DNA from: Verrucomicrobiota bacterium
Lineage (GTDB): Bacteria; Verrucomicrobiota; Verrucomicrobiia; Chthoniobacterales; Terrimicrobiaceae
Assembly: GCA_017305195.1 (NCBI GenBank)
Contig: JAFKMU010000047.1
Coordinates: 124,001 to 188,000, forward strand
Reading direction: 5' to 3'
DNA length: 64,000 bases
The translations under genes and the position numbers were made by a program. The notes beneath the pieces were generated by a model, which made no database searches, was not told the DNA's origin, and saw only the letters and a list, made by a program, of their open reading frames with translations. Positions within the stretch are counted from its first letter, which is position 1; every line of letters starts with the position of its first letter. Positions 14,880-37,856 of the stretch are shown in pieces.

Positions 14880-17516
14880 CTACCTCAGCGGGATGTCTTC
14901 CGGCGAGCCCGAGGCGAGCTTGAGAAGCGGCATGATGAGAGCCGTCCATCCCGTCTGGTGCATCGCCCCCAGCCCGCGCCCGGTGTCTCCATGGAAATAC
15001 TCGGGATACAGCAGGTAGTCGCGAAACTGCGGATCGCACTGGAGCAGGTCATCATTGGCAAAAATGGGCCGACACCCATCCTCGTTGCGTTCGAAGAGAT
15101 AGACCAGCCGTGTCGCGAGTTCTACAGCCCAGTCACGCAAGTTGGCATTTCCGCCTGCGCACGGACACTCCACCGTGATGGAATCGCCGTAGTATTGGTG
15201 GAACTGCAGCAATGCCTCCACAAGCAGGTAATTGACCGGCATCCAGATCGGGCCGCGCCAGTTGGAGTTCCCCCCGAAAGCCCCGATCTTTGACTCGCCC
15301 GGATCGTAGCCGACGGTGAGATTGCGCCCGTCGTAAGGCAATACATAAGGGTGCTCGAGATGGTGCCGCGACAGCGCCCGGATGCCGTAGGGTGAAAGAA
15401 ACTCCTCAGGATCAAACATGCGGTGCAGCAGGCTCTTCATACGGTGCACGCGGAGCAGGGAAAACAGCCTGCGCTCCTTGCGCCCGGTCCTCTGCCAGCG
15501 CGAGACGAGCGAGGCCAGGCCGGGCTCATGCTTGAGAATCCAGTCCAGCCGCTGGGCAAAGCGTGGGAGGCGCTCGATATGCTCCGCCTCCAGAGTCTCG
15601 ACCGCGAGAAGCGGGAGCAATCCGGCAATGGAACGCACCTTGAGCGGGAACGGCCTGCCGTCGGCTTTGGTCACGACATCATAAAAGAACTGATCCTCCT
15701 CGTCCCACAGGCCGAGTCCCTGCCCGCTGACGTTGTTCATCGCCGAGGCGATACGGAGGAAATGATCGAGGAACTTCGCCGCGATATCCTCGTAGGCGGG
15801 ATTGGTCAGCGCCAGCTCGGCGGCGATGCGCATGAGGTTGAGCGAGCACATCGCCATCCAGGCCGTCGCGTCGCACTGGTGCAGCTTCAATCCCGGCGGA
15901 AGCGGCTGGCTGCGGTCAAAAACTCCGAGGTTGTCCATGCCGAGAAAGCCGCCCTCGAAGATGTTCTGCCCGTCGGCATCCTTGCGGTTGATCCACCAGC
16001 CAAAGTTCAGGATGAGCTTGTGAAAGACCCGTTCCAGAAACTCAATATCTCCCCGGTCGCCGCGGCGCTCGCGGTCGATGAGAAACACCCTCCAGGCCGC
16101 CCATCCATGAACCGGAGGGTTGGCATCATCAAACGCCCACTCATACGCTGGCAGCTGGCCGTTGGGGTGCAGATACCACTCGTTGGTGATATGTAAAAGC
16201 TGCTCCTTGGCAAAGGCCGGGTCGACCGAGGCGTAAGCCACTGCGTGAAAAGCAAGATCCCATGCGGCGAACCATGGGTACTCCCAGGTGTCGGGCATAA
16301 GAATGATCTCGCCCGCGTTCACATGCTGCCAGCGGGCATTGCGCCCGTTGGCGCGGGAGGGAGGCGGCTGAGGGCCGGTCGGGTCTCCCTCGATCCACCG
16401 CCGGACGTTGTAGCGGTAAAACTGCTTGCTCCACGTCAACCCAGCCGCAGCCTGGCGGTAAATCCCCGCCCGCTCCTCGGAAAGATCATCGGTCTTCTGA
16501 CGGTAAAACTCATCCGCCTCGGCCCGGCGTTTCGCCAGCACGTCGGCAAAGTCCGGAACAGGCGCCTCCAAAGGGCGCAGCGTGGTGTGAAACTCGCGCG
16601 TCTCGCCGGGCCCGAGCGTGCACCGCCAGACGGCCGCCGCCTTCGTTCCCTCCTGCTCAGGGTTCACGCATGCCGTGTCGCCGAGAATGATGCAGTCGTG
16701 AAAAGCGTCCTTCGGCCACGTGCATTCCCCCGCCCGGAAGAGGCGGTTGAAATTCGTTTCATTATCGGTGAAGAGCCATTCCTGGGCGCCCTCGGCTTCG
16801 AAGCGATAAGCGCCGAGCTCCGGATTCGACGCGCGCACCCCTCCCTCGACGAAACGCAGCGCCGGCTTGCGCTCGGGTTCGCCCCAGGACCAGACGTTGC
16901 GGCACCAGAGCTGAACGAGCAGGGTGAGTGGAGCGGCCTCCGGTCCGTGATTGGTCACGGTGATTCGCTGGCAGGTCACTCCCGGCCCAGCCTTGGCGTA
17001 CTCGATGAAGACGTCGAAATAGCGATTCTCGCGAAAAATCCCCGACTGCGTGAGGTCAAACTCCTCCTCCAGGCGGGAGCGGCTCTGGTTGGCCCGGATC
17101 AGCTCCTCGTAGGGAAAGGCCTTTTGCGGATACTTGTAGAGCATCCGCTGGTAGGAATGCGTCGGTGTGCCATCGAGGAAGAAATACGATTCCTTCACGT
17201 CCTCTCCGTGATTGCCCTGCGCATTGGTGACTCCGAAAAGGCGCTCTTTCAGGATGGCGTCGCAGCCATTCCACAAGGCAACGCCCAGGCACAGGCGCTG
17301 GCGTTCGTCGGACCAGCCGCCGAGGCCGTCTTCACCCCAGCGATAGGCGCGGCTGCGGGCGTGTTCATGGGGGAAGTCGTTCCAGGCATCCCCGCTCGCA
17401 CTGTAATCTTCCCGCACGGTGCCCCACTGGCGTTCGCTCAGGTAGGGCCCCCACAGGAGCCAGTTTACCGATCCGGAGGAGTGCTCGGCCAGCCGCTGAT
17501 GTTCAACACCTGCCAT
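14880..17516 (-). CDS. GH63/MGH1-like glucosidase
   Basis: Large cytoplasmic-type enzyme related to bacterial GH63 proteins with an (alpha/alpha)6 catalytic barrel. The 878-residue product has no signal peptide. An N-terminal beta domain (about 1-330, with YLSERQWGTVREDYSASGDAW) precedes the barrel. In the barrel the segments DTWEYPWFAAWDLAFHAVAYA, NPPVHGWAAW, ENIFEGGFLGMDNLGVFDRS-like and GGNSNWRGPIWMPVNYLL are typical of the family; acidic residues within them probably include the catalytic pair. Substrate is not determinable; relatives act on glucosyl-containing oligosaccharides or compatible solutes. It is monocistronic and convergent with holA. Its neighbour upstream on the same strand is an unrelated operon. 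Confidence 0.85.
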   Translation of the reverse strand: MAGVEHQRLAEHSSGSVNWLLWGPYLSERQWGTVREDYSASGDAWNDFPHEHARSRAYRWGEDGLGGWSDERQRLCLGVALWNGCDAILKERLFGVTNAQGNHGEDVKESYFFLDGTPTHSYQRMLYKYPQKAFPYEELIRANQSRSRLEEEFDLTQSGIFRENRYFDVFIEYAKAGPGVTCQRITVTNHGPEAAPLTLLVQLWCRNVWSWGEPERKPALRFVEGGVRASNPELGAYRFEAEGAQEWLFTDNETNFNRLFRAGECTWPKDAFHDCIILGDTACVNPEQEGTKAAAVWRCTLGPGETREFHTTLRPLEAPVPDFADVLAKRRAEADEFYRQKTDDLSEERAGIYRQAAAGLTWSKQFYRYNVRRWIEGDPTGPQPPPSRANGRNARWQHVNAGEIILMPDTWEYPWFAAWDLAFHAVAYASVDPAFAKEQLLHITNEWYLHPNGQLPAYEWAFDDANPPVHGWAAWRVFLIDRERRGDRGDIEFLERVFHKLILNFGWWINRKDADGQNIFEGGFLGMDNLGVFDRSQPLPPGLKLHQCDATAWMAMCSLNLMRIAAELALTNPAYEDIAAKFLDHFLRIASAMNNVSGQGLGLWDEEDQFFYDVVTKADGRPFPLKVRSIAGLLPLLAVETLEAEHIERLPRFAQRLDWILKHEPGLASLVSRWQRTGRKERRLFSLLRVHRMKSLLHRMFDPEEFLSPYGIRALSRHHLEHPYVLPYDGRNLTVGYDPGESKIGAFGGNSNWRGPIWMPVNYLLVEALLQFHQYYGDSITVECPCAGGNANLRDWAVELATRLVYLFERNEDGCRPIFANDDLLQCDPQFRDYLLYPEYFHGDTGRGLGAMHQTGWTALIMPLLKLASGSPEDIPLR

Positions 17517-17566
17517 TACCCGCTGGCTTGTAGCACATTGCCCGGCTGCCGTCTCCTTCTCTCGGC

Positions 17567-17598
17567 AAAAAAGAACGCCCTCGCGCAGGAGCCGCGAG
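17567..17598 (-). terminator. probable terminator of the pseudokinase operon
   Basis: CTCGCG/CGCGAG (17580-17585, 17593-17598) form a 6-bp stem, followed on the minus strand by T6 (17567-17572) after 7 nt. It lies just after the stop at 17622. Confidence 0.6.
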
Positions 17599-17621
17599 AC
17601 GCCTGCCGGACGGCCGACGCT

Positions 17622-18548
17622 CTAGCGGGAGAGCAGATTTTCCGGACGCTTATCCTCCGGGGTGGGCGCGCTCTGGGGCGTGGGCAATGGCACGGGGCGA
17701 TCACCCAGCTTGGGCAGCTGCTTCTCGGGCGGAGTGGCGCGCGGATCGTACTCCGTGCCTCCGCTGACGGAGACCACACCCTGGGAACGGACGAGAATGG
17801 GGCGCTGGGCTCCGGCTTGATATCCCTGCTGGTTGACCAGCTTGCCGTTGACATCAAACTGAGAGTAAAGGAACGCCTTGGGAGCGGTGTTTTGCAGGAT
17901 GTGGATGTTGTTCGCCCCATCCATCTCGATGTCCGAGTTGTTGAACGCGATGAATCTCCCCAGTTGAGTCGTGCAGTAAACGATGCCCGCCTCGGCATCC
18001 TCCACGCGCAGATACAGCATGCTCGTCGTCGGCAGACGGTGCGCGAGCACGGAGACGCGACGCGTCTTGCCTGGTCCCGCGCCCTCCGGCACGCCGACGG
18101 TGTCCTCCCAAAGCAAGCGACCTTCCGTGATCTCGATGTTCAGGTTTGGCGAGGAGAAGTATTGCTTGAGCTCCTCCGAGTACACGGTTCCCCTCACCCG
18201 GTAGGTGCCAAACTCTCCCAAGGGAAAAAGCGGTGTGAGGTTAATGGCGCGCACGACCTTCTCGCCCGCCGGGACGGTGAGCGGCTGGTTCTGGTAGTTG
18301 GGATCGTTCGGAGGTATGGGACGCCCCTTGCCAGTCTCGATCTGGAAGCTGAACCACTGGTTCCTCGGGGTGTCGGCGAGATCCAGCGTGCGCCCACTCT
18401 GGTTCGTGATCGTAACCGTGCAGATGATCGGCTCGTAAACGACGTAGAGACTGCGCTTGAACTTGATGTCCACCTGGATCTGGGCAGACAACGGACTAAG
18501 CGCGGCCCAGAGGGCGAGAGCAATGAGCCAATACCGGAATTTCGTCAT
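17622..18548 (-). CDS. exported protein of unknown function, last gene of the pseudokinase operon
   Basis: I do not recognise a named family. The 308-residue product has a signal peptide (MTKFRYWLIALALWAALSPLSA, cleavage after LSA). A beta-rich region resembling an Ig/CARDB-like fold follows (QVDIKFKRSLYVVYEPIICTVTITNQSG, about 24-75), then a second beta-rich part. The C-terminus is Pro-rich and probably disordered (about 265-308). Its start overlaps the stop of the receiver-pseudokinase gene by 4 nt (ATGA), so it is translationally coupled to it. A role as an envelope partner or output of that protein is inference. A terminator candidate follows the gene. Confidence 0.75.
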   Translation of the reverse strand: MTKFRYWLIALALWAALSPLSAQIQVDIKFKRSLYVVYEPIICTVTITNQSGRTLDLADTPRNQWFSFQIETGKGRPIPPNDPNYQNQPLTVPAGEKVVRAINLTPLFPLGEFGTYRVRGTVYSEELKQYFSSPNLNIEITEGRLLWEDTVGVPEGAGPGKTRRVSVLAHRLPTTSMLYLRVEDAEAGIVYCTTQLGRFIAFNNSDIEMDGANNIHILQNTAPKAFLYSQFDVNGKLVNQQGYQAGAQRPILVRSQGVVSVSGGTEYDPRATPPEKQLPKLGDRPVPLPTPQSAPTPEDKRPENLLSR

Positions 18549-21058
18549 TTGGCGGGAGGTGTGTCCGATACGGTACGGAATCCCAGCGCCTCGTCATTCT
18601 GAATTTCACTCAATTTCAGCACACGACGAGTCAGCTTGTAATCCGGGGTGCGCCAGTTGCCGCCGCGAATCACCGGAACCTTCTGGCTCGGCAGCATGGG
18701 ATCAGCATCGAAGGTCGCCGTCCACTCCGAGACGTTTCCACCCATGCCGTAAACGTTGAAGGGGCTCTTGTCCGTCTTGACTGCAGTGACAGGGCTCCAT
18801 CCGTCCCATCCGTCCACCTCGCCGCCCTTGGCAGGATCGCGATTGGTGTCGACGCCGCTGTTGACCTTCTTGTTGTCGGGCTCGCCACCCCAGGGATAGA
18901 GAAAGCCCTGAGTGCCGCGGGCGGCCTTTTCCCACTCCTGCTCGGTCGGCAGGCGGTGGCCTTTCCACTTGGCGTAGGCGTAGGCGTCGTACCAATCCAC
19001 ACCGAAGACCGGGCTGTTCACATCGAGCTTGGCGTCATGATATTTCCCCCAGCGCTTGGCCCGGGTGTAAAACCCGGGCATCCAGCCGGTGGGCAGATCC
19101 TCGTCGGCCCATTTTTCCGGAATGTGCGATTTGCCCTTGGGCTGATCGGGGTGGTCGAACTTCGTCGCATCCTGCGGGTGCGCCTTCAGATACTCGAGGA
19201 ACTTCGCATACTGGCCGATGGTAACCTCGTACTCGTCGATGTAAAAGGTCGGCAGGTTCATCTTTTGTCCATCCTGGTAGACGAACTCCCCGGCCGGGAT
19301 CTCGATCATCTTGCTGTAATCGGTGCCCTTGGTATTCGCCCGGAAGATGAAGAACGAGACGATGCCGAGCACAGTCGCGAGCAGCGCCAGAGAGATGGCT
19401 GAGCTGACGAGCATGTTTCGGCGCTGGCGCTTCTTGGCCTCTTCGACCATGCGAATGGCCGCACGCTCCTGGGCGTCCAGCTTGTAGGCGTCCTGCGGCG
19501 CGACTTTGGGCTCAAGGGCCGTCACCGCATCGATGAGAGCCTGCCATGTCGGGAACTCCCGGGAACCGTCGGCAAGGCTGGCCGCGAGAGCACGAATGCC
19601 CAGCGCCTGAGACTGCTCGGGCAGGGCCGCGGCAAAAACCCGCCCCAGTTCGGACATCTCGCGCTTCATGTCGAAGACTGCATCCGGATGATAGGTGGCG
19701 ATGTTGGCGATGCGGGGCTTGTTTTTCTCCCCGATCAGGACGCTGTTTTCGCCGATCAGGTTGTGGGAAATCTTTTCCTTCTCGAAATAAGCCAGCACCT
19801 CGGCGGCGACCTTCATCGCCTGAATGGCTGTCATTTCATCCAGAAACTGCCCGGCCTGAATAATCTGACTCAGCGAGCGGCACGGCACGTATTCGCAGGA
19901 GTAGAAGTATGAGCCCTGGGACTGCCCCGCCTCATACACCGCGAAGATGTAAGGATGCGAGACATTGGCCTTCACACTGGCGTCGGAGATGAAGCTCTTG
20001 ACCTCCTCCTGATCGCTAGCGCGCTGGGAATCGAGAATGTAGAGACGGACCGGGCGGCCGATATTGGTCTGCTGGGCGCGATAGATGCCGCTGCGCGAAC
20101 CCTGGCCGATCTTGGCCTCGACCTGGTAGTTGCCAACGGTCGCACCCACGTATTGATCGGGGGCGAGTTCAACCTCGGAGTTATCAGCTGGCTGGGCGAT
20201 GGGCGCAGATGCTGCTGCCGGGCGCGGCCCTGCGGCGGCGGGAGAGGGCGAGGCGGCGGGGCGCAGTGCTCCGGCCTTGGCCACGGCTGCGGCGGGCTTC
20301 GCCTGCGGCGCTGCGGCGACTTTGGGAGCAGCGGAGAGCTTGGCGACCACGGGCTGGCCAGCCACGGGCGCTGCGGCCTGCGGTACAGCCGCGACCGCCT
20401 TGGGTGCGCTGGCCGTAGCTGCGACTGGTGCAGCCGCGGCGGCAACAGGCTTCGGCGTGGCAGTCGGCGTGGCAGTCGGCGTGGCAGTCGGCGTGGCGGA
20501 GACTTTGGCGACGACTGGAGCGGCTTGAGCCGCCACAGGAGCCTTGGCTCCCAGTGACGCTGCCGCAGCGGCTACAGCGCCGACTGGAGGGGCCGCCTGC
20601 GCGACAACCGGAGCGGGCTGAGCAACGACAGACGCTGGTTGAGCAACAGCCGGGGTCGGCTGCACAGGAGCTGCCACGGGCTGAGCAACGACGGGGGCCG
20701 CTTTTGGCTCCTCGTAAAAGGCGCGAATCGCTTCGTCGAGATCGTGTCCGGAAACCGGCTTGGGCAAAAACTTTGCACCGATCATGCGCGAGCCATAGTC
20801 GCTCAGATCATAGCCCGAGATGAAAACCGCCTTCATTTTCGGGAATCGCGCCTGAAGGCTCTCGCGCAAGGTGAAGCCATCCGTAGGCTGCATCACCACA
20901 TCGGTCACGAGGACGTCGACCCGCCCCTGCTGCTCGGCCCAGGCCGAGGCTTCATCCGCACTGGCGGCTACACCAGGCTGGGGCCAACCGTTCTCTGTCA
21001 ACCAACCAGCCAGCCCGGAAGCCAAACCGGGCTCGTCGTCTACGATCAAAATTTTCAT
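18545..21058 (-). CDS. receiver - pseudokinase - transmembrane - FGE-fold (SUMF1-like) fusion protein
   Basis: This 837-residue protein combines modules rarely seen together. Residues 1-115 are a CheY-like receiver with the full residue set: Asp7/Asp8, phosphoacceptor Asp53, Ser81 and Lys100. An Ala/Pro-rich linker (116-300) includes a PTAT repeat (187-203). Residues 308-520 match a Ser/Thr kinase fold (VGNYQVEAKIGQGSRSGIYRAQ) but the catalytic residues are gone: the VAIK lysine is Tyr340, HRD is SHN (431-433) and DFG is NIA (452-454). One transmembrane helix follows (549-572). Residues 584-830 are an FGE-sulfatase/SUMF1-type domain (FYIDEYEVTIGQYAKF, HRLPTEQEWEKAARGT, GMGGNVSEWT) without the catalytic cysteines of formylglycine-generating enzymes. 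Predicted topology puts receiver and pseudokinase in the cytoplasm and the FGE fold in the periplasm. Middle gene of a three-gene operon with 4-nt overlaps on both sides. Confidence 0.9.
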   Translation of the reverse strand: MKILIVDDEPGLASGLAGWLTENGWPQPGVAASADEASAWAEQQGRVDVLVTDVVMQPTDGFTLRESLQARFPKMKAVFISGYDLSDYGSRMIGAKFLPKPVSGHDLDEAIRAFYEEPKAAPVVAQPVAAPVQPTPAVAQPASVVAQPAPVVAQAAPPVGAVAAAAASLGAKAPVAAQAAPVVAKVSATPTATPTATPTATPKPVAAAAAPVAATASAPKAVAAVPQAAAPVAGQPVVAKLSAAPKVAAAPQAKPAAAVAKAGALRPAASPSPAAAGPRPAAASAPIAQPADNSEVELAPDQYVGATVGNYQVEAKIGQGSRSGIYRAQQTNIGRPVRLYILDSQRASDQEEVKSFISDASVKANVSHPYIFAVYEAGQSQGSYFYSCEYVPCRSLSQIIQAGQFLDEMTAIQAMKVAAEVLAYFEKEKISHNLIGENSVLIGEKNKPRIANIATYHPDAVFDMKREMSELGRVFAAALPEQSQALGIRALAASLADGSREFPTWQALIDAVTALEPKVAPQDAYKLDAQERAAIRMVEEAKKRQRRNMLVSSAISLALLATVLGIVSFFIFRANTKGTDYSKMIEIPAGEFVYQDGQKMNLPTFYIDEYEVTIGQYAKFLEYLKAHPQDATKFDHPDQPKGKSHIPEKWADEDLPTGWMPGFYTRAKRWGKYHDAKLDVNSPVFGVDWYDAYAYAKWKGHRLPTEQEWEKAARGTQGFLYPWGGEPDNKKVNSGVDTNRDPAKGGEVDGWDGWSPVTAVKTDKSPFNVYGMGGNVSEWTATFDADPMLPSQKVPVIRGGNWRTPDYKLTRRVLKLSEIQNDEALGFRTVSDTPPAK
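20461..20496 (-). repeat. 12-bp tandem repeat in the linker of the receiver-pseudokinase gene
   Basis: Three exact copies of CAGTCGGCGTGG, with a degenerate copy before and a partial one after, encode the PTAT repeat of the Ala/Pro-rich linker. In-frame 12-bp units would change linker length by four residues at a time. Confidence 0.85.
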
Positions 21059-22089
21059 TCGTTATCTTTCTTGAGATAGAGGGGAAGGGGGAAGTCTTTG
21101 GCGAGCTTGCCTGGGTCGGCGCGGAAATCCTGCAGTTCGTTGTTGTAGTAAATGCCCACGACATAGCCGAAGTATTTCCGGCCTGCCCCGTCGGCAGTGC
21201 CGTCCGGCATCGAATATTGAATCTCAAGAAGCTCGAAATCATTGCCTGCCCAGTCGATCGGCGGGCTGAGCCACTGGGGCACCACTTTGGATTCGGTAAG
21301 CTGGACATCCCCGTCCTCCGTCTGCTCGTAGAAGAAAACGAGGATCTTCACATCCTTGACGTTGATCGTCGATCCGGGCCGGGCTTTCACCGCCACCTTC
21401 AGTCCCTTGACTCCCATTTTGACGTCCCGGAGCCGCACATCAACGATGCCGAGAGACGAGCCGGGCTGGAGGCCGTTTTCCCGCAGTTCCTGATCGCCGC
21501 CAGACTCCAGCGGACCGGCCGAGCGCGAACGAGTCGGCGGAGCGGCCGCGATCACCTGCGACAGGCGATTCATGTCCTTTTCGATGCCGACGCGTACTTG
21601 CGGCGGCAGTCCGGGATACCGGGAGGCAACCTCAAGGGCGGCCATCGCGTCTCCGGGCTGATCCAATCCCTCAAAGGCTTTGGCCTTGAGCACGAGAAGC
21701 TTGGGGTCGCCCGGCAGGATGGCTTCGGCCTCTTCAAGGCTTTTCATTGCCAGATCGTACTCACCCACGCGCAGCTTGCTCGCTCCTTCATTGAGAAGCT
21801 CGATGGCTTGCTGGTGATCAGCCGCCGAAAGCGCGGGAACCGGAGCCGACTGCGAGGGAGGGAAATTAGCCGATGCAGGCGTCGGGGCCGCCTCGCTCAA
21901 GTCCGTATCGCGGCCCTTCTGGGCCGCCATGGCCGAGTCGGTGATCTGCTGGCCGACCATCGGGCCGAAGTGGAGAATCACCGCGAGCAACTGGACGATG
22001 GCAAGGAGTCCCAGGACAGAAATCGCGACGGTAAACGTCTTGCCCAAGGGCTGCTTGGGTAAGGGAGGATGAGGGGTGGCAGTCGACAC
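21055..22089 (-). CDS. membrane-anchored TPR protein, first gene of the pseudokinase operon
   Basis: The 344-residue product has a short cytoplasmic N-terminus rich in Pro, one transmembrane helix (about 18-42), a Pro/Ser/Ala linker and two or three TPR-like units (about 90-170, ...GASKLRVGEYDLAMKSLEEAEAILPGDPKLLVLKAKAFEGLDQ). A C-terminal beta-rich domain follows (about 205-335, LGIVDVRLRDVKMGVKGLKVAVKARPG) that I do not recognise. Topology suggests the TPR and C-terminal domain are periplasmic. The GTG start lies 8 nt after a -10-like TATTCT and has no Shine-Dalgarno sequence. The stop overlaps the next gene by 4 nt. It may act as a scaffold for the downstream FGE-fold protein (inference). 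Confidence 0.82.
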   Translation of the reverse strand: MSTATPHPPLPKQPLGKTFTVAISVLGLLAIVQLLAVILHFGPMVGQQITDSAMAAQKGRDTDLSEAAPTPASANFPPSQSAPVPALSAADHQQAIELLNEGASKLRVGEYDLAMKSLEEAEAILPGDPKLLVLKAKAFEGLDQPGDAMAALEVASRYPGLPPQVRVGIEKDMNRLSQVIAAAPPTRSRSAGPLESGGDQELRENGLQPGSSLGIVDVRLRDVKMGVKGLKVAVKARPGSTINVKDVKILVFFYEQTEDGDVQLTESKVVPQWLSPPIDWAGNDFELLEIQYSMPDGTADGAGRKYFGYVVGIYYNNELQDFRADPGKLAKDFPLPLYLKKDNE

Positions 22090-22156: not shown

Positions 22157-23254
22157 TCAGCTCCCGGGCTCCGGCGCGATGGTCACCTTGAGCGGAATGA
22201 TCTTTTCGCCACGCCAAACCTTGATGTCCACGGTATTTCCGATCGGCGTGTCGACGACCCGGGTGCGTAGATCCGAAGCATCCCGTACGGCTTTTCCCCC
22301 GTACTCGACAATCACGTCGCCCGATTCGATGCCCGCCTTCTCCGCCGGGGAGTCGGCCTGGGTCACCTGGACGAGAGCCCCGGCGATATCACCGGGCAGA
22401 TTGAGCTGGCGAACGATCATGGGCGAAAGCGGCAGGGTGGAAACACCAAACCAGGGGCGGATGAAGCGCCCATGGTCGCGGATGCTCTCAAAGACCCGCC
22501 GCACGGTATTGGCCGGAATGGAAAAGGCAATGCCCTGCGCCTGGGTCTGGGCCGGGACCATGTTGTTGATGCCGATCAGTTCGCCCCGCAGGCTGACGAG
22601 AGGGCCGCCGGAGTTGCCGCGGTTGATCGCCGCGTCGGTCTGGAAAAACTCATTGGCCGCTTCACTGGCCGCCCGGCGTCCACGGGCGCTGATGATGCCC
22701 TGGGTGACGGTCTCCTGGAGACCGAGGGGATTTCCAACGGCAAAAACCATCTGGCCGACTTTCACCTCGTCGGAGTTGCCCCAGGCGATGGGCGAGATGT
22801 TTTCCGGGGCGATTTGAAGGATGGCGATATCGGACGGAATGTCGGCCCCGAGGAACCTGGCAGGCAGCACCCGGCCGTCATTGAGCGTGACCTCGGCCGA
22901 TCCGGCCCCCTGGATCACGTGAAAATTCGTCACGATGTGTCCTTCCGGAGACACGATCACCCCCGAGCCGAGCTGCGGCGGAGTCGCCCCGGGCTGCAAG
23001 CCAAAGAGCTGCCGCAGGTACTGGATGCGGGGATTGGTCGTATCGGCGGGGATGGCCGTGATGCTGACGACGGATGGAAGGACGTGGGACACGAGGTCGG
23101 TAAACTCCCGATCCACGGTCTCCAGGGCCGTATAATGCGACACTGCGACAGGGACCCGCGCAGCCGTCGCTGCCTTCGTACGGGTAAAATAAAGCAACGA
23201 CACCGCTCCGAAGAGTAGGACAACAAAGATGAGGAATCGCAGGACGCTCTTCAT
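22157..23254 (-). CDS. HtrA/DegP-like periplasmic serine protease
   Basis: Trypsin-type protease of envelope quality control. From the ATG at 23254 the product has 365 residues: a transmembrane anchor (about 5-23), a trypsin domain with triad His112 (TNFHVIQG), Asp142 (SDIAILQ) and Ser215 (GNSGGPL), and a single C-terminal PDZ domain (about 270-360, QADSPAEKAGIESGDVIVEYGG). One PDZ and an uncleaved anchor resemble DegS more than DegP. The longer in-frame start 27 codons upstream was rejected because the hydrophobic segment would then be buried. It is separate from the adjoining ABC transporter operon, whose last gene stops 84 nt upstream of this start. Confidence 0.92.
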   Translation of the reverse strand: MKSVLRFLIFVVLLFGAVSLLYFTRTKAATAARVPVAVSHYTALETVDREFTDLVSHVLPSVVSITAIPADTTNPRIQYLRQLFGLQPGATPPQLGSGVIVSPEGHIVTNFHVIQGAGSAEVTLNDGRVLPARFLGADIPSDIAILQIAPENISPIAWGNSDEVKVGQMVFAVGNPLGLQETVTQGIISARGRRAASEAANEFFQTDAAINRGNSGGPLVSLRGELIGINNMVPAQTQAQGIAFSIPANTVRRVFESIRDHGRFIRPWFGVSTLPLSPMIVRQLNLPGDIAGALVQVTQADSPAEKAGIESGDVIVEYGGKAVRDASDLRTRVVDTPIGNTVDIKVWRGEKIIPLKVTIAPEPGS

Positions 23255-23338
23255 GGGGCGTGCCGTACTAAAGCGAGGGAAGTCCCGGGGGGGCAAGTGA
23301 AATGGAGATCGTTCCTCGCTCCCGGAGCGCGGCAAATC

Positions 23339-25033
23339 CTAGAGACGGAACATCCCGCCCAGTTTTTTCCCGAGCAGCAGATTGGCCGCAAAGACCGTGG
23401 TCGCGAGGAAAAGCATGGCCCATACGCCGAGCGCACAAGCGAGATAGGGTCCCTCGCCCAGCAGTTGATACAGCTCGAAGATGGCCTTGGTGATCGGATA
23501 GTCCTTCATTCGCTGCGCAAGGATCAGGGAGTCGCTGACCTCGAGCATGGCGAAGGAAAACGCCAGCAGGCCGCCCGCCAGGATGTTGGCGAGGATGAGA
23601 GGCAGCGTCACACGCCGCAGCGCCCGCAACGGAGATGCCCCGAGATTCTGCGCGGCCTCCTCCAGGGTCACGCTGGTCTGCTGCAAGCCGGCGGCGACAG
23701 ACCGCACGACATAGGGCAACCGCCGGACGGCGTAGGCGATGACGATGATCACCAGGGGATCGGTGACCGGGTTGAGGAATTCAAAGAGCTTCCCCGGCTG
23801 GGTCATGGCCAGATATCCGAAGGCCAGCACCAATCCCGGCACTGCCAGCGGGAGCATGGCCATGGCATCGAGGAGGTGGCGGCCCGGGAGCTTCGTCCGG
23901 GTGACGATATAAGCGATGGCAATGCCGAGCACGACATCGAGGAGGGTGGCCAGCGCCGCGTACTTGAGGCTGTTCTGGATCGAAAGAAGCGTAAGACTGT
24001 GACCCAGCGCCCCCTCGAAGTGTCCCAGCGTCCAGCTCGTCGGGAGGATCGTGCCGTACCACTGCGAGGAGAAGGCCGCCAGGATCACCCCCAGGTGAGG
24101 CAACAAGGCGAGCACGGTAACGCCCCCAAAGAACGCCGTGCATCCCCAGGCGGCCAACGGGGTCATGGGCCGGGGTCCGCCCTGGCTGGTGGCTTTGGGC
24201 ATCATTCCATGGGCGCTGTTGCCCAGCACGTACCGGCTCACGGCATAAAGAAGCACGGTGGAGACCAGCATCACGACCACCAGCGCATAGGGAAAGGGAT
24301 TCCCCGAAATGTCGCGGATGCCGTAGAAAATCTGCACCGGCGTCACGCGGGTGTACTCAAACATCAGGGGCACGCCCAGTTCGGTGAAAGCCCAGATAAA
24401 AACGATCGCGCCCCCGGCGAAAACGCCCGGCATGATAAGCGGCAGGGTGATGCGCCGGAATTTTCTCAGTCCGGTGCAGCCGAGGTTCTCCGCCGCCTCC
24501 TCCATCGCCGGATCGACATTCGACAGCGCAGCCGTGATGTTGAGAAACAGCACCGGGTAAAGGTGCAGGGCGTTCATGATGACCACGCCCCAGAATCTCC
24601 CCTGCCCCAGCCAGTCGACGGGAGAAGCCTCGCTGACGAGACCCAGGCTCTCCAGCAGGGCATTGAGCGCTCCCTGCTGGCCGAGGATCTGACGCACCCC
24701 GATCGCTCCTACGAAAGGCGGCAGGATCATGGGCACGAGCACCAGCCCGGAAAGAAGCATCCGCCCCGGAAAAAGGCAGCGATCCGCCATGAGGGCGAGC
24801 GGAAGGGCGATAAGCAGCGTCAGCACCGTGCTCACGACCGCCAGCAGGAAGGCATTGACCAATCCCTCGACATAGACCGGGTTGCGAAAAACCTCGAGGA
24901 CATAGCCCAGGGTAAAACCCTGGCCGGGCGTGAAAAACGCCCCGCGCACCGTCTCCCCGATAGGCCAGAGGAAAAAGAAGAAGAAAAACAGGATGCTGAA
25001 CCCGAAAACGGCAAATGCGGTGGAGCGGCTCAT
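23339..25033 (-). CDS. iron(III)-type ABC transporter permease (fused double permease)
   Basis: Inner-membrane channel of an iron- or phosphonate-type importer. The 564-residue product contains two tandem permease halves of about six helices each, with EAA loops EEAAENLGCTGLRKFRRITLPLIMPG (first half) and EEAAQNLGASPLRALRRVTLPLILAN (second half); both contact the ATPase. Such FbpB-type duplicated permeases are typical of ferric importers and of 2-aminoethylphosphonate systems, so substrate is uncertain. The start overlaps the binding-protein stop by 4 nt. Last gene of the ATPase, binding protein, permease operon. Confidence 0.9.
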   Translation of the reverse strand: MSRSTAFAVFGFSILFFFFFFLWPIGETVRGAFFTPGQGFTLGYVLEVFRNPVYVEGLVNAFLLAVVSTVLTLLIALPLALMADRCLFPGRMLLSGLVLVPMILPPFVGAIGVRQILGQQGALNALLESLGLVSEASPVDWLGQGRFWGVVIMNALHLYPVLFLNITAALSNVDPAMEEAAENLGCTGLRKFRRITLPLIMPGVFAGGAIVFIWAFTELGVPLMFEYTRVTPVQIFYGIRDISGNPFPYALVVVMLVSTVLLYAVSRYVLGNSAHGMMPKATSQGGPRPMTPLAAWGCTAFFGGVTVLALLPHLGVILAAFSSQWYGTILPTSWTLGHFEGALGHSLTLLSIQNSLKYAALATLLDVVLGIAIAYIVTRTKLPGRHLLDAMAMLPLAVPGLVLAFGYLAMTQPGKLFEFLNPVTDPLVIIVIAYAVRRLPYVVRSVAAGLQQTSVTLEEAAQNLGASPLRALRRVTLPLILANILAGGLLAFSFAMLEVSDSLILAQRMKDYPITKAIFELYQLLGEGPYLACALGVWAMLFLATTVFAANLLLGKKLGGMFRL

Positions 25034-26601
25034 TTTCCCTCCCGGGCAAGTTGTTCCGCCTCCCGATACTGGCGGCGGAAGGCATCGGTAAGTTCACGGG
25101 TAAGCGCGACCTCGGCGATGCGATCGGGCGAGGCAAGGGCCGGCCTGAGTTTCTCCCGGGCCAGAGCGTAGCTCACCGCGCTGACATCGTAAAACCTGGC
25201 TGTCGCACAAGGGGGAAACCCGGCGGCGATCAGCGCCTTCCACGCGGCGGCCAGTTCGTCATGGCTGTCCTGGCACATGACCCGGATAACCAGACCGATC
25301 ACGCGGAAGAGCGGCGCAGTCCAGGCGGCATGATAGGTAAAGAGCTTCGCGTCCTCGTAGGGAAACACCGTGGGATCGGAGCGAAATGCCGTGAACGCGG
25401 GAGCGTAAAGCTCCTTGCGAATCGGCAGTCGGCGGAGCGCGTATTTCGTCGGGCCGCCCGGCGTACCGACCCGGAAATTCCAGAGCTTCTGCCCCTCGAT
25501 GGAGAGAACGAAGTCGATAAACTTTTCCGCGACCTCGCGATTGGGGGCGCCGCGGATAAGCGCGATGGGGTCCACCCCGACCGAGGAGCCGCCCGACGGC
25601 GTGACGTAGACCAGGCGCGACGCGCCATCCGGCCCCGCGACGAACTCGCTTTGGAACCGCCCATAAAAGTCAATACACATCCCGATCGCGGCATCACCGG
25701 CCGCGACATCCATGGGCGCGCGGCCCGCCGCATCGGTGAAATACCGCGCATTGGCCGCGGCGGCCTGGATGAGATTGAGCCCGGCCGCCCACCCCTCGCC
25801 CAGGGGCTCTTCTCCGGCCTGCTGCATCTTCTGCTGGAGGATCATCTCAAAGGCCTTGGCGGCGGAACCGCTCTTGGAGGGATCGGTCAATGCCACCTCA
25901 TTGAAATAGACGGGATTGGCCAGATCCTCCCAGCCGGAGGGCGGAGTGGCGATGCCCAGCCGACGCAGGGAATCCGTGTTGTAGCAGATGCCGAAGGAGG
26001 AGAGGGCTGCGCCGATCCAGCGGCCCTTCGGATCATAGAACGGCTCGCCTGATACCGATTGGGGAATCGACTGCTCCGTGAACCACTCCGGATGGCGGCG
26101 CATCACGTCGCCCGCGACCAGACGGCCCGCATCGGCCTGCTGGATGAAATCGAAGGACCCTCCGCCAAACATCACATCGATCCCGATGCCGACGCCGGAA
26201 TCGAGAAAGGCGCGGCGGGCCGCCTGCGCCGGAGTGTCCCCGGCCGGGCTGTCGGCGGGCGTCACCTTCGGATTGTCAAAAGCCCCGATCACCTCGGGGG
26301 TCCAGGCGTTGCCACGGGAACGCCAGTAATTCTCAAAGGCATTATAAAACTCACTCTTGAGGTAGCGCGCGATCTCGCTGCCGCCGCCCGGGGTGCGCCA
26401 GTCGAGGCGCACGGTGCGCCCGGTGTCCTTCCGGTACTTTTCAGCGAAGGCGCGGGTGAATTCATAGCGGATCGACTCATTGTGAGGGCTGATCAAGACC
26501 AGCGTGTCCTCTGCGTCAGCCAGCAGGTTTTGCTTCGGTCGCAGCAGAAATGGCAGCGCCAGCACAGCGACGACCAGCCCGATGGCGAGGAGATTTCTCA
26601 T
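25030..26601 (-). CDS. ABC transporter substrate-binding protein (iron-type, family 1)
   Basis: Predicted periplasmic ligand-binding protein. The 523-residue product starts with an N-terminal hydrophobic segment (MRNLLAIGLVVAVLALPFLL) without a lipobox cysteine, so it is either cleaved or stays anchored. The rest is an extracellular solute-binding fold: TLVLISPHNESIRYEFTRAFAEKY, GGGSFDFIQQADAGRLV, AALSSFGICYNTDSL, GDAAIGMCIDFYGRF and a C-terminal lobe. At 523 residues it is longer than the usual 330-380 of ferric-binding proteins, with an extended C-terminus (about 420-520). It overlaps both operon neighbours by 4 nt. Confidence 0.85.
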   Translation of the reverse strand: MRNLLAIGLVVAVLALPFLLRPKQNLLADAEDTLVLISPHNESIRYEFTRAFAEKYRKDTGRTVRLDWRTPGGGSEIARYLKSEFYNAFENYWRSRGNAWTPEVIGAFDNPKVTPADSPAGDTPAQAARRAFLDSGVGIGIDVMFGGGSFDFIQQADAGRLVAGDVMRRHPEWFTEQSIPQSVSGEPFYDPKGRWIGAALSSFGICYNTDSLRRLGIATPPSGWEDLANPVYFNEVALTDPSKSGSAAKAFEMILQQKMQQAGEEPLGEGWAAGLNLIQAAAANARYFTDAAGRAPMDVAAGDAAIGMCIDFYGRFQSEFVAGPDGASRLVYVTPSGGSSVGVDPIALIRGAPNREVAEKFIDFVLSIEGQKLWNFRVGTPGGPTKYALRRLPIRKELYAPAFTAFRSDPTVFPYEDAKLFTYHAAWTAPLFRVIGLVIRVMCQDSHDELAAAWKALIAAGFPPCATARFYDVSAVSYALAREKLRPALASPDRIAEVALTRELTDAFRRQYREAEQLAREGK

Positions 26602-27662
26602 GCCCGGTCCTCAAGGGCGATAACATCCAGCGGCTCCAGGAAATACTGGCGGCCCGCGACCCGGCTGGACAGATGCGGGTTCATCTCCAGGACCTTGAGC
26701 GTCTCTCCTCCGGCGTCGAACTCATGCTGGGCCAACTCCCCGAGATAGATGGTGGAGTGCAGCGTCGCCGGGATTGCTTCCGCTTCGCTCCTGTCGGAGA
26801 TCCTCCAACTCTCGGGACGGATGGAGAGCAGCACGCTGTCACCAGCCTTTGTTTCCAGCGTCTCCACCGCATGGGCGGAGAAGCTCCCGGGCCGAGCCTC
26901 GACCCAGAGCCGGTCGTCATCCCGCGAGATCACGCGGCCTGGAAGGATATTCGTCTCGCCGATGAACTCTGCAACGAGCCTTGAGTGCGGCCTTCGGTAG
27001 ACCTCCTCCGGCCGCCCGACCTGTATGATCCTCCCCTCGGCCATCACCGCGAGGCGATCCGCGACCGAGAGGGCCTCCTTCTGGTCATGCGTCACATAGA
27101 CCGCCGTAAGGCCAAACTCCTTGCAAACGCGGCGAATCTCGGAGCGCATCTCCAGCCGGAGCCTGGCGTCGAGGTTGGACAACGGCTCGTCAAGAAGCAG
27201 AGCTCGCGGGCGCACCACCAGGGCGCGAGCCAGGGCGATCCGCTGCTGCTGGCCGCCGGAAAGCTGGCCGATTTTCCGCCCGGCATACGCCTCCATGCGC
27301 ACCGAAGCAAGAGCCTCGCGCACCCGTTTCTCGCGCTCCGTCGCCGGAACGCCCAGTTCCTCCAGCCCGAAGGCCACATTGCGGGCCACCGAGAGGTGGG
27401 GCCAGAGCGCGTAGCTTTGAAACATCATGCCGGTCCGGCGCTTGTGCGGCGGCAGCAAGGTCACATCCTCTCGATCGAAAAATACTTTCCCCGCGTCGGG
27501 GGTGACGAATCCCGCGATCGTACGGAGCAGAGTCGTCTTGCCGCAGCCGCTCGGCCCCAGAAGAAAAAAGAGCTCGCCGGGTTCGATCCGCAGCGAAACA
27601 GCGTCGAGCGCCGCCTGGCTGCCGAACCTCTTGGTCAGTGCGTCTATGGAGATCGCGATCAT
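26598..27662 (-). CDS. iron-type ABC transporter ATP-binding protein
   Basis: ATPase that powers the linked permease. The 354-residue product has Walker A GPSGCGKTT (36-44), a Q-loop (MMFQSYALWPH), signature LSGGQQQR (134-141), Walker B LLLDEPLSNLDA (about 155-166), switch YVTHDQKEA and a C-terminal TOBE domain (about 240-350). This layout is the FbpC/PotA type. It is the first gene of the operon and is divergent from the hybrid histidine kinase gene. Confidence 0.93.
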   Translation of the reverse strand: MIAISIDALTKRFGSQAALDAVSLRIEPGELFFLLGPSGCGKTTLLRTIAGFVTPDAGKVFFDREDVTLLPPHKRRTGMMFQSYALWPHLSVARNVAFGLEELGVPATEREKRVREALASVRMEAYAGRKIGQLSGGQQQRIALARALVVRPRALLLDEPLSNLDARLRLEMRSEIRRVCKEFGLTAVYVTHDQKEALSVADRLAVMAEGRIIQVGRPEEVYRRPHSRLVAEFIGETNILPGRVISRDDDRLWVEARPGSFSAHAVETLETKAGDSVLLSIRPESWRISDRSEAEAIPATLHSTIYLGELAQHEFDAGGETLKVLEMNPHLSSRVAGRQYFLEPLDVIALEDRA

Positions 27663-36566: not shown

Positions 36567-37856
36567 GTGAAGAACATCCTGTTTCTGATGGCGGATGAGT
36601 TCCGCCACGACATCGCAGGCTTTGCAGGAAATCCTGTCGCCCGCACGCCGCATCTGGACCGGCTGGCGGCAAATGCCATGCGATTTGACCGGGCCTACAC
36701 GCCCTCGCCGGTCTGCGTCCCGGCCCGCCAGTGCATGGCGACCGGCCGGTATCCCCAGCGCGCGGGCTGCACGCAATTTCTCTCCGATATCCCGCCGGAA
36801 TCGCCCACTTTTGCCCGGTGGTTCGCCGATCAGGGATATTACACCGTGGCCTGCGGCAAGCTGCACCACCGGGGGCAGGACCAGATGCAGGGCTGGATGC
36901 ACCGCATCGGGTCCGAAACCGCCGTGCGCTGGCCGGAGGCCTACGCCGAACGCAACCAGATCGGGCGCCGCAAGTGGCAGGGAGCCGAGGATCTGCGCCG
37001 GGCGGGACCGGGAGTGTCGCCCCTCGGCATCCACGATGATTACACAGTGCAGGGAGCATGTGATTTCATCCGCATCCACTTTGGCGGGATGTACGACCTG
37101 CCCCCGGAGACGCCGCTCTTGATGATGGTGAGCCTCCAGCAGCCTCACTTCCCCCTCCTGGCGGATCGCGAGCTCTACGACTACTATCACGACCGCGTAC
37201 CGGTCTTCGTCGACCAGCCCCGCCCGGATCTCCATGCCCTGAATGTCGGACGCATCGGAGAAGATGACGGTGTCGGGAAAGAAGATATCCGGCGCGCCAC
37301 GGCAGCGTATTACGCAATGGTCGAGAAAACCGATCAGCGGCTGGGCCGGGTCATTCGCGCCCTTGAGGAGGCCGGACAGGATCTCGACGACTGGATCGTG
37401 GTTTTCGCCTCGGACCATGGCGACATGCTGGGCCAGCATGGACTCTGGGAAAAACGGAAGTTTTACGACGGCAGTGCCCGCATCCCCCTCTTTCTGCGAG
37501 CAAGGTCGCTGGAAGCCGGCGTGAACTCCACCCCTGCGAACCTGGTAGACATCTTCCCCACCCTCTGTGGTCTGGCCGGCTTGCCCCTCCCGGCGGGTGT
37601 GGACGGCCACGACCTGCTCGGCAATCCGCCGAAAGTCACTTTCAGCCAGTACCAGGCGGACAAATTCATGGTTTGCGACGGGAGATGGAAATACATGGCC
37701 TTTCCCGAAGGCGAGGAAGCGTTGTTTGACCTCTCCGGCGATCCCGAAGAGGCGGTCAACCTGCGCCACTCCGCCACGCATGCGGCGCGACAGGAGGAGA
37801 TGCGGCAGCTGCTGGGGGATTTCCGTGCCAGCCAGCAGATCGACCGGCTGGCCTGA
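36567..37856 (+). CDS. type I (formylglycine-dependent) sulfatase
   Basis: Hydrolyses sulfate or related esters with a formylglycine made from the motif cysteine. The 429-residue product has metal ligands Asp10 in LFLMADEFRHD and the modification motif CVPAR (Cys50-Arg54) followed by the conserved TGRYP. The second metal site is FASDHGDMLGQHGLWEK. No signal peptide is evident, so it is probably cytoplasmic and works on internalised or intracellular substrate. GTG start immediately after the cyclase stop. An active FGE or anSME must be elsewhere, as the FGE-like protein in this window lacks cysteines. The stop abuts that of the sigma factor gene (TGATCA). Confidence 0.93.
   Translation: MKNILFLMADEFRHDIAGFAGNPVARTPHLDRLAANAMRFDRAYTPSPVCVPARQCMATGRYPQRAGCTQFLSDIPPESPTFARWFADQGYYTVACGKLHHRGQDQMQGWMHRIGSETAVRWPEAYAERNQIGRRKWQGAEDLRRAGPGVSPLGIHDDYTVQGACDFIRIHFGGMYDLPPETPLLMMVSLQQPHFPLLADRELYDYYHDRVPVFVDQPRPDLHALNVGRIGEDDGVGKEDIRRATAAYYAMVEKTDQRLGRVIRALEEAGQDLDDWIVVFASDHGDMLGQHGLWEKRKFYDGSARIPLFLRARSLEAGVNSTPANLVDIFPTLCGLAGLPLPAGVDGHDLLGNPPKVTFSQYQADKFMVCDGRWKYMAFPEGEEALFDLSGDPEEAVNLRHSATHAARQEEMRQLLGDFRASQQIDRLA

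Follow-up and report, generated by a model that had tools for sequence, protein, structure and literature searches.

Among bacterial pseudokinases, EssB/YukC and the MviN pseudokinase have been described as membrane scaffolds (PMC12599244), and among proteins with the fold of the formylglycine-generating enzyme (FGE), PorK lacks the catalytic cysteine pair and docks other proteins by means of the former substrate groove (PMC12421860). The chlamydial Pkn1, a candidate for the closest relative, is, according to a review, a validated, cytoplasmic kinase. A review from 2025 that surveys the pseudokinase families of bacteria (PMC12599244) makes no mention of a receiver, the FGE fold or the Verrucomicrobia. 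Here we describe a three-gene cluster from a 64,000-nucleotide stretch of a Verrucomicrobiota genome (the window), the central gene of which joins a receiver, a kinase fold and an FGE fold in one protein. No published description of this cluster was found in the open-access literature, nor did searches of it on Akkermansia yield anything on these genes.

The three-gene unit and its distribution

The three minus-strand genes span positions 22089-17622 of the window (Table 1) and overlap by 4 nt (ATGA) at both junctions, with coordinates, frames and overlaps exactly as given by an earlier sequence-only reading of this DNA. The HtrA/DegS-like gene upstream of the unit recurs at that place in ten Chthoniobacterales loci and in L132. 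It is abutted, almost without a gap, by genes for an ABC importer (ATPase, binding protein and permease; 23339-27662), so that the transcription unit could extend further; L009, the nearest relative, is the only one of the loci seen that shares the permease and binding protein. Downstream of gene 3, a glycoside hydrolase follows in the window, with no amidase or transpeptidase neighbor. A 785-aa open frame on the plus strand (16245-18602), antisense to gene 3 and the glycoside hydrolase, is probably a by-product of the high GC.

Table 1. Positions in the window of the three genes, the domains of the gene 2 product and the upstream protease gene
Feature	Positions	Strand	Remarks
Gene 1	21055..22089	-	344 aa; N-terminal TM helix, TPR, C-terminal beta domain
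Gene 2	18545..21058	-	837 aa; receiver, Ala/Pro linker, pseudokinase, TM helix, FGE fold
Gene 3	17622..18548	-	308 aa; signal peptide, Ig/CARDB-like domain, strand-rich C-terminal domain
Receiver domain, residues 3-112	20723..21052	-	Pfam; D7/D8/D53/S81/K100 signature complete
Ala/Pro/Val-rich linker, residues 113-304	20147..20722	-	6-344 aa in relatives
Pseudokinase, residues 305-520	19499..20146	-	beta3 Lys to Tyr340, alphaC Glu to Asp359, HRD to H432-N433-L434, DFG to N452-I453-A454; no activation segment
TM helix, residues 549-572	19343..19414	-	hydrophobicity and model; part of a predicted 45-residue helix
Periplasmic FGE/SUMF1-like domain (location predicted), residues 580-832	18563..19321	-	cysteine-free; catalytic Cys positions are Thr804 and, presumably, Leu809
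HtrA/DegS-like protease, membrane-anchored, one PDZ domain	22157..23335	-	upstream neighbor of gene 1

When 84,980 species genomes were scanned, 349 stretches proved to encode relatives; the analysis was based on the 80 best, almost all of which carry the label Verrucomicrobiota. The nearest relative, with 89% identity, is that of Spartobacteria bacterium LR76 (L009), where all three genes are present, and the window is accordingly regarded as closely related to this bacterium. Of the 69 loci among the best 80 that extend far enough for a test, 64 have gene 1 immediately ahead of gene 2, with a spacing of -20 to +63 nt in nearly every case; gene 3 comes immediately after gene 2 in about 50 of 77 (49 listed cases and L021, whose gene 3 sits within a longer open frame). 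The operon that the sequence-only reading had proposed, with a TPR membrane protein and an exported partner flanking gene 2, is thus a layout shared by other genomes, and the possibility that its gene order occurs nowhere else can be set aside, as it recurs in dozens of genomes. Together with the low dN/dS values between the window and L009 (0.053 for the pseudokinase, 0.051 for the FGE domain and 0.073 for the receiver, i.e., 0.05-0.07 in the three folded domains), this recurrence points to more than chance. A viral origin was rejected, viral contigs giving only two matches, both to the FGE domain only.

The unit is not invariant. A first genome survey scored three candidates per genome, which makes its absences unreliable, and partner presence was therefore taken from later searches. 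The C-terminal domain of gene 1 was present in 40 of 40 sampled genomes carrying gene 2 and also in at least eight in which the search gave no gene 2; gene 3 was found in some further classes too, and in several genomes it is unlinked to gene 2 or missing beside it. In two genomes of the same order (G013 and G334), gene 3 directly follows gene 1 with no gene 2 between them, so that gene 2 is dispensable there for whatever genes 1 and 3 do. In G167, the slot between the TPR and exported genes is occupied by a 231-aa protein (L131:3848-4543) in which DUF4388 replaces the kinase, TM and FGE parts and a decayed receiver remains, the latter matching the family profile with an E-value of 1e-18. These layouts, and the genomes with gene 1 or gene 3 and no gene 2, indicate that the partners can persist without the central protein.

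The gene 1 product has a TM helix at about residues 21-39, one or two TPR repeats at about 98-157 and a conserved C-terminal beta domain at about 195-330. Its TPR matches are sub-threshold in the window protein (TPR_14 at 21.1 bits versus the Pfam cut-off of 23.5); the label is borne out by the family, with TPR_19 in 22 of 36 members and agreeing PDB profile matches. As its single TM helix lies near the N-terminus with positive charges before it, the protein is predicted to be periplasmic, where it would meet the FGE domain of gene 2 rather than the receiver. The gene 3 product combines its signal peptide with an Ig/CARDB-like domain (about 24-143) and a strand-rich domain (about 162-267) for which no specific structural match was obtained, the structural search being filled by matches to the Ig-like domain.

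In several clades, the neighbors of gene 3 are cell-wall enzymes. The L130 amidase has seven homologues in the best 80 of the 349 loci, and every one of them adjoins gene 3 directly on its 3' side (L025, L035, L039, L040, L044, L083 and L085), Amidase_3 of Pfam being recovered in five of five tested, and in L130 and L131 an N-acetylmuramoyl-L-alanine amidase gene is likewise placed directly 3' of the exported gene. In L072 and L132, L,D-transpeptidase genes occupy the same slot, and one group of Verrucomicrobiales carries a divergently oriented bactofilin gene upstream of the unit (12 homologues among the loci; confirmed with Pfam in L036). Conserved neighbors as a general rule were rejected, the only recurring ones being HtrA in a part of Chthoniobacterales, the amidase in several clades and bactofilin in the 12 Verrucomicrobiales loci. 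By association only, the amidase, L,D-transpeptidase, HtrA and bactofilin genes suggest a connection to the cell wall.

Domain architecture and residue losses in the gene 2 product

Pfam searches of the 837-residue protein recover Response_reg at residues 3-112 (E 1e-13), Pkinase at 311-451 (E 3e-13), with the match covering only profile positions 1-140 of 263, and FGE-sulfatase at 583-830 (E 9e-40), in keeping with the three folds assigned beforehand from the letters of the sequence. The single TM helix of that earlier reading corresponds to the one strongly hydrophobic segment (residues 548-576), which is found at the same place in 80 of 81 members.

The kinase fold was modeled by AF2 (mean pLDDT 91), and its best match among kinases is Mycobacterium tuberculosis PknB (Z 21.9; 2.2 A rmsd over 208 residues). 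None of the features of an active Hanks-type Ser/Thr kinase is retained, whether the beta3 Lys, the HRD Asp, the DFG Asp or the activation segment, and with the kinase fold present and the catalytic motifs lost the domain falls among bacterial Ser/Thr pseudokinases. The activation segment is gone, since in the model only about 12 residues from Asn153 lie between the DFG strand (149-151) and helix F (165-178; model numbering). The sequence-only reading had likewise regarded VAIK, HRD and DFG as all replaced, and a careful alignment returned no functional residues (Tyr340, Leu434 and Asn452 standing at the three catalytic positions); its placement of the HRD triad at SHN 431-433 was, however, one residue off, as alignments to StkP and Snf1 pair HRD with H432-N433-L434, so that the His is retained and Leu434 takes the place of the catalytic Asp. 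Across the family, the DFG Asp is found in none of 81 aligned members (Asn in 79, Gly in two) and the HRD Asp in two of 81. The beta3 Lys is retained in 35 of 81 and the alphaC Glu in 26 of 81; hence, the missing VAIK motif characterizes the window's clade rather than the family. With its low dN/dS, this domain is under strong purifying selection and is thus maintained despite being inactive.

A similar loss is seen on the other side of the membrane. The SUMF1-like domain, predicted to be periplasmic from its place after the TM helix, as had been read earlier, matches human FGE with a Z of 24.5 and PorK with 22.8, EgtB and PvdO also being among its structural matches. Alignment to the Streptomyces coelicolor FGE places Thr804 at the first catalytic Cys position, and Leu809 is what we take to be the second, from the known spacing. 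Having the FGE fold and neither of the two copper-binding catalytic cysteines, nor indeed any cysteine (only two family members have one in this stretch), the domain is not a formylglycine-generating enzyme, and sulfatase activation by it is ruled out. A 429-aa sulfatase-domain protein (Pfam Sulfatase, E 1e-49) is encoded elsewhere in the window on the plus strand (36567-37856), unlinked to the FGE-fold gene.

The receiver of the window protein carries the complete response-regulator signature, i.e., the acidic pair D7 and D8, the phosphoacceptor D53, S81 and K100, just as had been read from the sequence. A receiver-like domain is N-terminal in all members long enough to tell, including some loci labelled Akkermansiaceae, except for one family (f8), whose proteins start at the kinase fold and are missing about 45 residues inside the FGE domain. 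The full signature is present in 13 of 70 family receivers, all of them in a single clade (28 rows, with a support of 91 on a quick tree, on which the state must have changed at least five times); the phosphoacceptor position is Asp in 19, Glu in 23, Gly in 13 and Asn in nine. The receiver has decayed repeatedly.

A scaffold or a signaling device

The reading that we favor, with about even confidence, is that the gene 2 product is a scaffold in the inner membrane that has no catalytic role, its FGE domain binding the two partners, both predicted to be periplasmic, in envelope maintenance. The cytoplasmic kinase fold would serve as a binding platform only, and the periplasmic FGE fold, as in PorK, would be a docking hub on which the gene 1 product, with its TPR and beta domains, and the exported, Ig-like gene 3 product assemble, the resulting complex probably serving the maintenance of the cell wall or envelope. 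In the window's clade, the intact, tethered cytoplasmic receiver may add an optional phosphorylation-dependent switch that other lineages have lost. Speaking against an envelope scaffold are the absence of amidase and transpeptidase neighbors at the window itself, the two genomes that keep genes 1 and 3 without gene 2, and those in which gene 3 is unlinked or missing.

The sequence-only reading had instead proposed that phosphorylation of the receiver is relayed through the kinase fold and the TM helix to alter the periplasmic FGE domain. Its premises, the intact receiver, the kinase-dead fold and the topology, have held, the window's receiver is under purifying selection (dN/dS 0.073), and some of the 13 members with the full signature have a receiver-kinase linker of only six residues. 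It cannot serve as a general mechanism, since most of the family has a decayed receiver or none at all and the linkers are of very different length; this range of 6-344 residues (192 in the window protein), along with a low-confidence hinge, predicted disordered, between the kinase fold and the TM helix in the AF2 model, speaks against a rigid mechanical relay, and no histidine kinase occurs among the annotated neighbors of the locus. Such inside-out signaling is accordingly considered unlikely, although a phospho-switch in the window's own clade is possible. We are similarly doubtful of a version in which phosphorylation acts as a switch for assembling the pseudokinase-TM-FGE hub with the TPR protein and the exported protein, which would yield a periplasmic cell-wall complex controlled from inside with no catalytic domain at all.

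The information might also flow in the opposite direction, a ligand or stress in the envelope being sensed by the FGE domain and its partners and reported by the pseudokinase through the binding of a cytoplasmic partner, comparable to what PASTA kinases do with catalysis. The topology equals that of the PknB-type kinases, which are the closest kinase fold match, and the linkage to HtrA protease genes would fit; however, the conserved unit encodes no cytoplasmic output partner, both conserved partners being predicted periplasmic, and this alternative too appears improbable. An unconventional activity, such as a kinase fold that binds nucleotides or catalyzes AMPylation, or Cys-pair-free chemistry in the FGE fold, could be read from the uniform Asn at the DFG position, the beta3 Lys and alphaC Glu surviving in a part of the family, and the enzymes of other chemistry (EgtB and PvdO) among the FGE matches. 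Yet the window protein has lost the beta3 Lys, the HRD Asp, the DFG Asp and the activation segment, and its FGE domain is cysteine-free, rendering such an activity very unlikely.

Comparison with known systems

If gene 2 is a scaffold, as we favor, a close parallel might be drawn with EssB/YukC, which likewise has a cytoplasmic kinase fold with degraded motifs and a shortened activation loop, one TM helix, an extracytoplasmic part and a scaffold role (PMC12599244). It differs in that no receiver or FGE fold is described for it and its partners are type VII secretion genes, none of which was seen among the Pfam-annotated neighbors of the locus. The MviN (MurJ) pseudokinase of the ActPs3 family is similarly kinase-dead with a deleted activation loop and a link to envelope biogenesis (PMC12599244); however, it is actinobacterial and lies within a multi-pass membrane protein, with no receiver or FGE fold described, whereas the gene 2 product has one TM helix and no flippase match and its loci are labelled Verrucomicrobiota, which places it outside ActPs3. 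On the periplasmic side, PorK/GldK, the ring lipoprotein of the T9SS, shares the FGE fold without the Cys pair, which in PorK serves as a docking hub. In contrast to gene 2, whose FGE domain follows a cytoplasmic part and a TM helix, it is an outer-membrane lipoprotein of Bacteroidota with no kinase fold; a T9SS-like ring, to which the FGE resemblance is the sole pointer, was not retained as an explanation.

Other parts of the phylum encode further kinase-FGE fusions of about 860-960 aa (L122-L129), in which, as in gene 2, a kinase fold and a hydrophobic segment are followed by an FGE-like domain at the C-terminus. Their HRD and DWG motifs are intact, the stretch between the kinase and FGE domains is much longer and there is no receiver match; they apparently form a separate family, and their existence means that joining the two folds is not in itself a novelty. 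In light of these comparisons, gene 2 would be placed among the transmembrane pseudokinase scaffolds, as a variant for which the open-access literature yielded no published description. Its relatives offer a natural series in which the receiver is intact, decayed, missing or recombined and the hub itself deleted, and their neighbors a concrete, testable link to peptidoglycan enzymes. In a phylum whose signaling has been little studied, a single conserved protein carries a repurposed enzyme fold on either side of the membrane.
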